From contig JAKLJL010000004.1 in assembly GCA_023151185.1 (NCBI GenBank), positions 197,586 to 261,585 of the forward strand: a stretch of 64,000 nt of DNA. The letters are read 5' to 3'. The DNA comes from Bacteroidota bacterium. GTDB lineage: Bacteria; Bacteroidota; JABWAT01. The translations under genes were made by a program, and so were the position numbers. Position 1 is the first letter of the stretch. Each line of letters begins with the position of its first letter. Under the pieces are notes generated by a model, which saw only the letters and a list, made by a program, of their open reading frames with translations, was not told where the DNA came from and ran no database searches. Below, piece by piece: positions 45,597-63,272 of the stretch.

Positions 45597-46103
45597 TTAT
45601 CTGAACCAGATCAGGATGGCTCCCGAACCGCCCATGTCAGGCGGGGCAGTCTGCCAGCGGTCAATCCGCTTTTTGTAGGTCCCGTTCAGTTCTTTTTCGA
45701 TCATGGGTTTGATCCTTGCCTGAAAGCGGTCAGACCCCAATCCTTTTCCGGTAATGACGAGAGCCTTTTCAGGATCGTCCTGAACCAGACAGGTTTCCAT
45801 AAACCGGATGAATTCTTCCCTTGCTCCGTCTACCGTAAGAAGGTGCAGATCCAGAACAGGCAAGGCACTTTTTTTTCTGAAACTAACCGGGCTGGGTTTG
45901 TCTGCTTCCTTGGGCTCCGGTTCCGTTTCTGCCATCATCCGGATGAGTTCTTCTCTGGAAACTTCGGGTATTGACCGGGAAATTGCCCGTGGTGCCGCCG
46001 GATCCTCCTTACCCCGGTTTTGGTTTTTTTTCTGTACCGGCTGGTCTTTGGGTTCTGCAGGAAGGTACTCTTCCATCAGTTTTTTCAGATCTTCACCAGT
46101 CAT
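45597..46103 (-). CDS. Smr-domain protein
   Basis: 168 residues. The N-terminal half is charged and disordered-looking; the C-terminal 90 residues are a Smr (MutS2 C-terminal-like) domain with DLHLLTVDGAREEF, VITGKGLGS and GAILIWFR. Smr domains can nick DNA or cleave RNA, in newer work on collided ribosomes. LDLH and TGKG are present, consistent with activity. The ATG overlaps the stop of the upstream gene (ATGA), so the two are cotranslated. Confidence 0.85.
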   Translation of the reverse strand: MTGEDLKKLMEEYLPAEPKDQPVQKKNQNRGKEDPAAPRAISRSIPEVSREELIRMMAETEPEPKEADKPSPVSFRKKSALPVLDLHLLTVDGAREEFIRFMETCLVQDDPEKALVITGKGLGSDRFQARIKPMIEKELNGTYKKRIDRWQTAPPDMGGSGAILIWFR

Positions 46104-46432
46104 CAGTATCGCCTGGAATCTTCACAGACATGACAGGTCCAGTACTTTCCTCTGGGAGGCTGTGGATGGTCGTCCGATTCAAGAAAGTCATTTTTCCTGT
46201 GATAATGCCATGCCTCGCACAATTGCTGCCAGGCGGCCTTGTCACCGGCGGCAGATTTAAACTCAAAGAACTCATATTTCGGATGGATGAGCTTCTGAAG
46301 TGTTTCGGCAAGATCGGTCTCTGCCATTCCTACCCGCTTCACGTCTCCTCTTTTGTTCATGAGTTTAAAAATACCGGGAGTTTTTGGTGGGATGGCTTTC
46401 GTAATTTCTTCCGGATTTAACGGATGCATCAT
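46103..46432 (-). CDS. Small degenerate GIY-YIG-like protein
   Basis: 109 residues. PPKTPGIFKLMNKRGDVKRVGMA resembles the GIY-YIG opening (G-I-Y becomes GIF, YVG becomes RVG), and the helix with LCEAWHYHRK fits the position of the catalytic Glu. The catalytic Arg expected after the YIG strand is absent (ETDLAETL), so nuclease activity is doubtful and the domain may only bind nucleic acid. The C-terminus has one CxxC (YWTCHVCED). It is sandwiched between the barrel gene (11 bases) and Smr gene (overlap), so all three form one operon. Confidence 0.6.
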   Translation of the reverse strand: MMHPLNPEEITKAIPPKTPGIFKLMNKRGDVKRVGMAETDLAETLQKLIHPKYEFFEFKSAAGDKAAWQQLCEAWHYHRKNDFLESDDHPQPPRGKYWTCHVCEDSRRY

Positions 46433-46443
46433 GTCTGGAAATC

Positions 46444-47280
46444 CTATTTTCTGAAGTCGAAATAAAAACGGGCAGTGGCTCTGAATCCGCTGAAATCGGA
46501 GGCACGGGAAAAAACTGAGGCCTCATCTGTTGCGTTAACATTCGGCGCAATATCCACCCGGAGGTCAAAACTGAACCAGTTGTGGCTTTCGGGAAGATAA
46601 AGGAAATTCATTCCGAGAATAACGGTTGCAACGGGGTTCCAGTAATAGTAAGACAGGGCTTTGGTGTCAAGCTCAGAAGAAACCCCGCTGACACCGTCCT
46701 GCCAAACCGTAAGGGCAGTAAGGCGGCCGGTTTCCCTGACCTTCATGACCCCGGCTCCCAGGCCGAAATAGGCATACCGCAGGGGTAAAATGACAGACCG
46801 GTAATCACTGTAAACCAGACTGATCATAATAAGCTGATGGTCGACCGCTGCATCGGTGACAGACCGGGTTTCGATACCCGTCAGAGAGCCGTTTGTCCGG
46901 TACCGGTCAGGAGGAGTATACGCCACATCTGTATTCATCTGGTGAAATTCCCAGCTGGCTTCGGCCAAAATCCCCGACTTGTACTTCCAGCCGGCCTGTA
47001 TACCGAACCCAATAAATCCGGGATAGGAACTTTTGGTTTTTCCGTCGAACAGAGTCCCGAAATTGAAATTAAACCCGGCAAAAAGATCACCGTACCGGCT
47101 GGTTCCCGAAAAAATGGGATGTACAGAGGATAGCTGAAGTTTCTTTTCAAAAAAGTCGGTGGTATCAACCGAGACCGAATCCCGGGGAACAATCAGGAGC
47201 CGGAGAGAATCGGTCTGGGCCAGACTTTCTCTTCCCGTAAGTAAAAGCAGAATAAGAAGTAAACCCGCTGATCTGATCAT
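46444..47280 (-). CDS. Outer-membrane beta-barrel-like protein
   Basis: 278 residues from the ATG at 47278-47280; a TTG six bases further out lies inside the promoter element and is rejected. The signal peptide is SAGLLLILLLLTGRESLAQ. Later strands (FAGFNFNFGTLF, GFGIQAGWKYKSGILAEASWEF, YAYFGLGAGVMK, FSFDLRVDIAP, FRATARFYFDFRK) alternate and end in an aromatic-rich C-terminus. The function is unknown. It is the first gene of the unit with the GIY-YIG-like and Smr genes. Confidence 0.78.
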   Translation of the reverse strand: MIRSAGLLLILLLLTGRESLAQTDSLRLLIVPRDSVSVDTTDFFEKKLQLSSVHPIFSGTSRYGDLFAGFNFNFGTLFDGKTKSSYPGFIGFGIQAGWKYKSGILAEASWEFHQMNTDVAYTPPDRYRTNGSLTGIETRSVTDAAVDHQLIMISLVYSDYRSVILPLRYAYFGLGAGVMKVRETGRLTALTVWQDGVSGVSSELDTKALSYYYWNPVATVILGMNFLYLPESHNWFSFDLRVDIAPNVNATDEASVFSRASDFSGFRATARFYFDFRK

Positions 47281-47283
47281 TTC

Positions 47284-47291
47284 CAAAGATA
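47284..47291 (-). promoter_or_regulatory. -7 element of the barrel/Smr operon
   Basis: On the minus strand TATCTTTG, an exact TAnnTTTG, with CTTG exactly 20 bases upstream (plus 47312-47315). Only three bases separate it from the ATG, so transcription would begin at or next to the start codon (leaderless mRNA). Confidence 0.55.
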
Positions 47292-47372
47292 GGATAATGC
47301 CGGAATCCCGACAAGCCGCCTGAAAGTAACTTCCCGGAATTTATTGCCTTGTTTAGATGAATTCCAGATTGA

Positions 47373-47404
47373 TTTGACTTTTGGGACAACAGTCTCTAAT
47401 TTAG
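47373..47404 (+). promoter_or_regulatory. Promoter for a short transcript upstream of typA
   Basis: TTTG (47373-47376), 20 bases, then TAATTTAG (47397-47404), one mismatch from TAnnTTTG. This is the best-spaced two-part promoter in the window. No gene starts close behind; a terminator lies about 50 bases downstream. Confidence 0.45.
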
Positions 47405-47416
47405 AATAATTCTAAA
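47400..47416. promoter_or_regulatory. Fur/PerR-type palindromic operator
   Basis: TTTAGAATAATTCTAAA is a perfect 8+1+8 palindrome. Its core differs from the PerR box TTATAATnATTATAA only by one symmetrical base pair change. It overlaps the -7 element and presumed start of the short transcript, an arrangement expected for repression. Confidence 0.5.
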
Positions 47417-47488
47417 TATAGTCTTGAGTTTGCCTCGATCAACCAACCCTGCCTGCCGGTCCTTAAAGCGCCGGCAGGCTATTTTTTA
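47408..47488 (+). ncRNA. Candidate small RNA, about 80 nucleotides
   Basis: The interval lies between the promoter at 47373-47404 and a strong intrinsic terminator. The first 40 bases are unstructured by eye and A/U-rich, then the GC hairpin. A frame starting at a TTG exists but has no ribosome site. It could also be an attenuated leader of typA, but typA has its own promoter at 47562. Confidence 0.35.
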
Positions 47489-47489
47489 G
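47451..47489 (+). terminator. Strong intrinsic terminator upstream of typA
   Basis: GCCTGCCGG and CCGGCAGGC form a perfect 9-base stem with an 11-base loop, followed by TATTTTTTAG. No annotated plus-strand gene ends here, so it must serve the short transcript or insulate typA. Confidence 0.85.
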
Positions 47490-47561: not shown

Positions 47562-47569
47562 TACCTTTG
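47562..47569 (+). promoter_or_regulatory. -7 element of typA
   Basis: TACCTTTG matches TAnnTTTG exactly and TTCG lies 20 bases upstream. It is 25 bases before the typA ATG, with CAGG as the ribosome site. Confidence 0.6.
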
Positions 47570-47594: not shown

Positions 47595-49430
47595 ATGCAG
47601 AGACGGGATGATATCCGAAATATAGCCATTATTGCCCACGTAGATCACGGCAAAACCACCCTGGTAGATGCGATTCTCCAGCAGACCGGGACGTTCCGTG
47701 AAAATCAGAAAATTGAACGCCGGGTCATGGATTCCAACGACCTGGAACGGGAACGCGGAATTACCATTTTCAGTAAAAATGCCTCCTTTCACTACAAAGA
47801 CCACAAAATTAACATTGTTGATACACCGGGCCACGCCGATTTTGGCGGCGAAGTGGAACGGATTCTCTCCATGGTGGATGGCGTTCTGCTTCTGGTTGAT
47901 GCTTTTGAAGGACCGATGCCCCAAACCAAATACGTCCTCAGAAAATCCCTTGAGGCCGGGTTAAAGGTTCTCGTTGTTATTAATAAAATTGACCGCCCCA
48001 GAAGCCGTCCCGTAGAAGTTCATGACATGGTCCTCGATCTGTTCATTGAACTGGGGGCCCATGAAGATCAGCTTGATTTCCCTTATGTGTTTGCATCGGC
48101 AAAACAAGGGTTTGCCAAACACAAAATTGATGATCCGGATGAAACGATTTTCCCGCTGATAGACAAAATTATTTCTGAAATCCCGGCACCGGTGGCGCAT
48201 GTGGAAGATCCTCTTCAGATGCTGGTGACTTCGATTGATTATAACGAATATCTGGGCCGGATAGCCATCGGGAAGATTTACAAAGGGTCCATCCGGTCGG
48301 GTCAGCAGGCAGCCAGAATCAAAGCGGATGGAAAAACCAACACGTACAAAATTGCCCGTCTGTTCGGATTCGAAAAACTGACCCGGGTCGAAATTGAATC
48401 GGCTTCTGCAGGAGATATTGTTGCACTTGCAGGAATTGAAGACATTACCATCGGTGAGACGATTGCCGATCCTGAAAATCCGGTAGCTCTGCCGTCGATT
48501 ACGATTGACCAGCCGACCATGACCATGAATTTTATGGTAAACAATTCCCCGTTTGCCGGCAAGGAAGGAAAATTTGTAACCAGCCGCCACCTCAGAGACC
48601 GGTTGTATAAGGAACTGCTTTCGAACCTGGCACTCCGGGTAGAAGACACCGAATCTGCCGATGTATTTAAAGTCTCGGGCCGGGGTGAACTTCACCTGTC
48701 GATCCTGATTGAGACCATGCGGCGTGAAGGCTATGAGTTTGCTGTTTCTGCCCCAGAAGTGATTCTGAGGGAAATTGAGGGTAAGCAATGTGAACCGATC
48801 GAGGAGTTAATCTGTGACGTTCCGGAAGGCTCGATGGGTGTGGTTATCGAAAAACTGGGACAGCGGAAGGCAGATATGATGAATATGCATCATATTTCGG
48901 ATACGGTGATCCGTCTGACGTTCCACATCCCGACCCGCGGACTTCTTGGCTACTCCAATGAATTTAAGACGGATACCCGCGGTGAAGGAATTATGACTCA
49001 CACCATTCACGGCTATGAACCGTTTAAAGGTGAAATCAAAGGCCGGAAGGCCGGTGCCCTTATTGCCATGGAACATGGAGAGGCGGTCGGTTATTCTCTG
49101 TCGAACCTGGATGACCGGGGAATCTTTTTCATCAAGGTTGGTACGCCGATTTACCCGGGAATGGTGGTCGGTGAAAACTCCCGTGAGTTTGATATGGTGG
49201 TGAACCTGAATAAAAACAAGAAACTCACCAACATGCGGGCTTCCGGTACCGATGAAGCACTGAAAATTACCCCTCCCCGTCTTCTGACCCTTGAAGAAGC
49301 GCTTGAGTGGATCAATGACGACGAACTTATTGAGGTGACACCGCAGTCCATCCGCCTTAGAAAGCGGGTCCTGGATGAAAACGAACGGAAAATCTGGGAA
49401 AAACGACGGAAATCGGCTTCTGAAGTATAG
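47595..49430 (+). CDS. typA: Ribosome-associated translational GTPase TypA/BipA
   Basis: 611 residues, an EF-G-like GTPase involved in 50S maturation and stress growth. Motifs: [12 protein letters not shown] (P-loop), RGITI switch [15 protein letters not shown], and [10 protein letters not shown]. The BipA-specific C-terminal part begins about residue 485; [29 protein letters not shown] is characteristic. It has its own promoter and a strong terminator, so it is monocistronic. Confidence 0.97.
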
Positions 49431-62566: not shown

Positions 62567-62622
62567 CCCACCTTTACTTGAACTGCTTTGCGTGATCATT
62601 AGAATTGATCTCAATTTATTTT

Positions 62623-62900: not shown

Positions 62901-63272
62901 ATGAACGTTCCTGAATTAGAAAGAATTCTTGGTGAAATGCGGACAAACGTTCCAGACGTTGAATCTGCTGCCATTATCTCATCTGATGGTTTGGTTTTGG
63001 TCTCTACCTATGGGCAGAATGCCAGATATGATGAATCCAGGGTTGGGGCCATGGTATCAGCACTGCTTTCTCTTGGAAACAGAGCCTCAGTTGAACTTGC
63101 GAGAGGGACACTGGAGCAGGTACTTGTTAAGGGTGCAAATGGCTATGTGGTCATTGAAAGTGCCGGTCCGGACACCGTTCTGGCGATTGCAACAAATTCA
63201 AATGCAAAACTTGGAATTATATTTTTTGAAACAAAGCGGTTGACTGAGAAAATTGAAAAAGCCCTGATGTGA
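62901..63272 (+). CDS. Roadblock/LC7-domain protein
   Basis: 123 residues, a single roadblock domain: LERILGEMRTNVPDVESAAIISSDGLVLVSTY, an AMVSALLSLG helix, VLVKGANGYVVIESAG and VLAIATNSNAKLGIIFFETKRLTEKI. Such proteins, for example MglB, regulate small Ras-like GTPases such as MglA in polarity and motility. No GTPase gene is visible before the window ends. GGAG precedes the ATG, and the following hairpin suggests a separate transcript. Confidence 0.9.
   Translation: MNVPELERILGEMRTNVPDVESAAIISSDGLVLVSTYGQNARYDESRVGAMVSALLSLGNRASVELARGTLEQVLVKGANGYVVIESAGPDTVLAIATNSNAKLGIIFFETKRLTEKIEKALM

Follow-up and report, generated by a model that had tools for sequence, protein, structure and literature searches.

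We found that the promoter, operator and terminator lying between an outer-membrane-type protein (OMP) gene and typA in this Bacteroidota genome are best explained as a Fur-controlled region of the OMP/porin type, in which the promoter has been orphaned by a rearrangement and now faces a terminator, and from which any RNA probably lacks a selected trans-acting role. We prefer this reading with some reservation, as it appears somewhat better founded than its competitors taken together. The relevant features of the window (the whole 64-kb stretch of DNA that was analyzed) are as follows.

45597-46103, minus strand: Smr-domain gene, in an order conserved in relatives
46103-46432, minus strand: small gene downstream of the OMP gene, no Pfam match, order likewise conserved
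46444-47280, minus strand: OMP gene encoding 278 aa without a Pfam match, divergent from the site and paired with the porin operon in relatives
47284-47291, minus strand: probable OMP -7 element TATCTTTG, just upstream of the ATG, with TTG 20 nt further upstream
47352-47368, no strand assigned: second, imperfect Fur box s1 (TTTAGATGAATTCCAGA), 48 bp from s2
47373-47376, plus strand: -33 element TTTG, aligned with the porin promoters of contig C3 and of genomes G001-G003
47397-47404, plus strand: -7 element TAATTTAG, overlapped by s2 and identical in the C3 porin promoter
47400-47416, no strand assigned: Fur box s2, the perfect 17-bp palindrome TTTAGAATAATTCTAAA, within the 19-mer ATTTAGAATAATTCTAAAT at 47399-47417
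47410-47488, plus strand: predicted short transcript of about 78 nt, from an inferred start site
47451-47487, plus strand: intrinsic terminator, with a 10-bp stem at 47451-47479 and a T run at 47482-47487
47562-47569, plus strand: -7 element TACCTTTG of typA itself, about 75 nt past the terminator
47595-49430, plus strand: typA, 611 aa

The rightward promoter is of the Bacteroidota -33/-7 type, with exactly 20 nt between TTTG and TAATTTAG, and the s2 palindrome overlaps its -7 box. About 35 weakly structured bases separate the palindrome from a hairpin of 10 pairs that is followed by ATTTTTT, and no plus-strand gene ends at this terminator. A sequence-only reading of the same DNA had described a well-spaced promoter, a perfect 17-base palindrome on its -7 element and a strong intrinsic terminator that ends no plus-strand gene, and all three elements are confirmed here; the weaker box s1 was absent from that reading. 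Hairpins of the terminator class number 5 in the window, compared with 2 in ten simulated windows (0.2 per window), and two of the other four are both strands of one hairpin between the convergent ends of typA and nhaA. We considered whether the hairpin could be a repeated element and rejected this, as its stem was found at just one other place (C27:78690), with a differing loop. A derivation from the terminator of the porin operon or of the M28-peptidase gene was also rejected, as the hairpin did not match the sequences downstream of those genes.

The 3.74 Mb genome contains exactly two occurrences of the s2 palindrome core and none of a reversed control pattern, and the only exact copies are the window site and the porin promoter on contig C3. 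A site with one mismatch (C11:722387) was set aside, as it lies inside coding sequence. Using a Fur-box matrix trained without the window, from fur promoters alone, we found that s2 ranked first and s1 second among all window positions, and that no position of a simulated 4 Mb sequence reached the score of s2. Across whole genomes, a loose Fur-box pattern was not enriched over its reversed control, and single loose matches therefore carry little weight. A weaker Fur-box-like site (ATTAGAATTGATCTCAA) at 62598-62614 precedes the gene at 62901 (123 aa) by about 290 bp and is within chance expectation.

Judging from its sequence, the palindrome at 47400-47416 is very probably the Fur box of this lineage and not a PerR or DtxR site, and there is good support for control of the site by a Fur-type metal regulator. 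When reverse-complemented, the 19-mer gives exactly the Fur box ATTTAGAATTATTCTAAAT predicted in Riemerella anatipestifer, and is thus identical to it on the opposite strand; the Fur protein of that organism bound selected promoters in gel shifts (PMC5609570). The Fur-repressed promoters of R. anatipestifer likewise carry the box on a -33/-7 promoter and the motif lies near iron-acquisition genes, whereas in the window a terminator stands downstream of the predicted box instead of an iron gene. The genome (G000) has one Fur-family gene, which is located beside feoAB, and the closest solved relatives of its product, by sequence, are mostly Fur proteins. This product has Glu where Bacillus subtilis PerR has Asp (position 104), and Asp at that position is diagnostic of PerR. 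The Fur part of the Fur/PerR control proposed earlier is thus retained on the strength of the single gene by feoAB and the Glu in its product, and the PerR part is not. As the 7-1-7 palindrome is common to Fur, PerR and Zur boxes, its form is not unique to Fur; however, a PerR or DtxR/MntR operator seems very improbable given the match to a Fur box tested by gel shift, the position and Glu residue of the sole Fur-family gene, the occurrence of similar sites in the neighborhood of iron genes (imelysin, TonB receptor), and the fact that no DtxR-family repressor (C-terminal) domain was found in G000 or in its three close relatives, G001-G003.

Versions of TTTAGAnTnAnTCTAAA are found upstream of fur in G000, G001, G002, G003, G010, G014 and G018, being perfect in G014, and the Fur-box motif occurs at porin-ApbE, imelysin and TonB-receptor loci of the same lineage. 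In G001 and G012, TonB-dependent receptor genes are preceded by sites that match the motif or nearly do so.

Several of these loci, and others, can be described individually. In G000, fur is directly upstream of feoAB (L077:4580-7306, contig C23), and its start codon is immediately preceded by an imperfect Fur box. Elsewhere in this genome (L106:1383-5145, contig C27), a near-perfect Fur box (TATAGAATAAATCTAAA) is located just upstream of porin-like, imelysin (Peptidase_M75) and di-haem oxidoreductase genes, which probably form an iron-uptake operon. At corresponding places, G001 and G002 have the Fur-box-like palindromes TTTAGATTGAGTCTAAA (L101:5295) and TTTAGACTGAATCTAAA (L103:5644), the former just upstream of a ferredoxin gene. 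In G012, a distant member of the phylum, a TonB-dependent receptor gene is preceded at a distance of about 210 bp by an exact Fur box (L108:4466, contig C2).

The origin of the rightward promoter is indicated by comparison with relatives. Homologues of the OMP gene in G001, G002 and G003 (43-59% identical) are divergent from an operon encoding a porin (Porin_O_P), an FMN_bind protein, a small protein and ApbE. In all three, two Fur boxes 47-49 bp apart lie between the OMP and porin genes, and the porin-proximal one overlaps the -7 element of an xTTG-20-TAnnTTAG promoter. The porin operon of G000 itself is on contig C3, where the porin is 51% identical to that of G002, the two-site layout of the relatives is preserved, and the promoter is TTTG-20-TAATTTAGAATNATTCTAAA, as in the window. 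Among all loci compared, TTTG-20-TAATTTAGAATTATTCTAAA (center base aside) was found only at the C3 porin promoter and in the window. Translation of the DNA adjoining the C3 sites, in one frame, yielded no recognizable fragment. The window aligns with both sites of these control regions (L075, L097, L098 and L099), with their spacing and with their promoter, and the rightward promoter is therefore the porin operon's own promoter or a copy thereof, no longer followed by the operon. The s2 box is identical to the C3 copy at 16 of 17 positions and the promoter is intact, while the spacer has diverged to 8/20. What distinguishes the window from the porin control region is that the porin operon is missing and that the terminator and typA follow, such that typA occupies the place of the porin while both Fur boxes and the promoter are retained.

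We then considered the gene order on both sides of the palindrome, which in the window is S46 peptidase, Smr, DUF, OMP, Fur boxes, terminator, typA and NhaA. In the three relatives typA is elsewhere, away from the OMP-porin pair. A misassembly at the 18-19 bp palindrome shared with the porin promoter was considered and judged unlikely: the S46 peptidase on the left and typA on the right are linked in G002, with one gene between them, and Smr on the left and NhaA on the right are neighbors in G001-G003, where NhaA adjoins Smr-DUF-OMP. That both old linkages survive across the palindrome makes a false join less credible and favors a genuine rearrangement.

The conservation of s2 and the promoter alongside a diverged spacer suggests that something still selects them, either OMP control or a functional RNA, and this counts against the orphaned-promoter reading. 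Control of the leftward OMP-Smr operon by the Fur boxes, with the rightward promoter silent or negligible, would be in keeping with the retention of the sites beside the OMP gene despite loss of the porin, with the distance of about 70 bp from the OMP gene to s1 in both the window and G001, and with a second possible leftward promoter (TTG-19-TATATTTAG) that overlaps s2. Nevertheless, we consider this reading unlikely, as the OMP gene has its own promoter-like element by its ATG, about 60 bp beyond s1, while it is the rightward TTTG-20-TAATTTAG that matches the C3 porin promoter exactly, and the terminator faces right.

Since the unit precedes typA and shares its strand, it has a placement that could also be expected of a typA leader or attenuator. 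However, the separate typA promoter past the terminator makes this extremely improbable: its -7 element TACCTTTG has conserved counterparts, equally far from typA, in G001 and G002, neither of which has a Fur-box unit there. The Fur-box/terminator unit is not a typA leader, and the terminator would insulate typA from upstream transcription.

Given this anatomy, the unit likely produces a Fur-repressed RNA, about 78 nt long, under iron limitation, and it is plausible that this is a short terminated transcript distinct from a typA leader. The layout, in which a predicted Fur-controlled promoter is followed by a terminator with no ORF, resembles those of RyhB, PrrF, NrrF and IsrR, where a Fur-type operator on the promoter likewise precedes a short RNA with an intrinsic terminator. 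The earlier proposal of a RyhB-type small RNA is thus upheld with respect to its promoter-operator-terminator architecture. The RyhB-like reading itself is not, and such a function is possible but unsupported. Conservation of the RNA in relatives was not found, as the transcribed part had no match in 40 relatives (three of them close) and only the palindrome itself was seen outside G000, in G012. The region encoding the 78-nt RNA had no Rfam match, and Hfq (PF17209) is absent in G000-G003. The RNA has a folding z-score of -4.05, mostly from the terminator stem, and in a low-power test of its pairing with gene starts (50 genes of the window), 89% of shuffled RNAs did at least as well.

These results bear on whether the unit encodes a functional Fur-repressed sRNA (about 78 nt) whose pairing with iron-protein mRNAs would spare iron, as in the case of RyhB, PrrF and IsrR. 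The presence of a promoter, a Fur box and a terminator without a gene between them is what one would look for in such a gene, s2 and the promoter are intact while their flanks have diverged, and Bacteroides species have sRNAs without Hfq (PMC7366714). Still, we regard this function as rather unlikely, since the promoter and operators are accounted for as a porin control region, the 40 relatives gave no homologue and Rfam no match, the low-power test on 50 genes gave no target signal, and Hfq was not found. In these respects, as well as in its origin from an orphaned operon promoter, the unit differs from RyhB and its analogues. It is distinctly unlikely, in our view, that by joining the Fur-controlled promoter of the porin operon to a terminator the rearrangement gave rise to a new iron-responsive sRNA gene in a Bacteroidota lineage without Hfq.

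According to the orphaned-promoter reading, the region corresponds to the Fur-controlled one that in relatives separates the OMP gene from the divergent porin-FMN_bind-ApbE operon. After rearrangement, the OMP gene would have kept two Fur boxes and a rightward porin-type promoter, the porin operon being located elsewhere under an equivalent promoter. When iron is present, Fur at s2 would cover the -7 box and repress transcription; when iron is absent, the promoter would make the RNA of about 78 nt ending at the terminator, which would shield typA from read-through. This RNA would most likely have no selected trans-acting role, or none yet. The sequences directly show the motif, its identity with a known Fur box, its occurrence at fur promoters, the homologous architecture, the changed gene order, the strength of the terminator and the separate typA promoter, while we infer Fur binding at s2, the existence of the transcript, its being functionless and the succession of rearrangement steps.

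Should the RNA prove functional, it would become a candidate for iron sparing in a phylum from which our literature searches retrieved no such RNA. For this uncultured Bacteroidota lineage, the analysis yields a Fur box with good support and part of a Fur regulon, and it indicates that a promoter-operator-terminator unit resembling an sRNA gene can arise from an operon that has moved.
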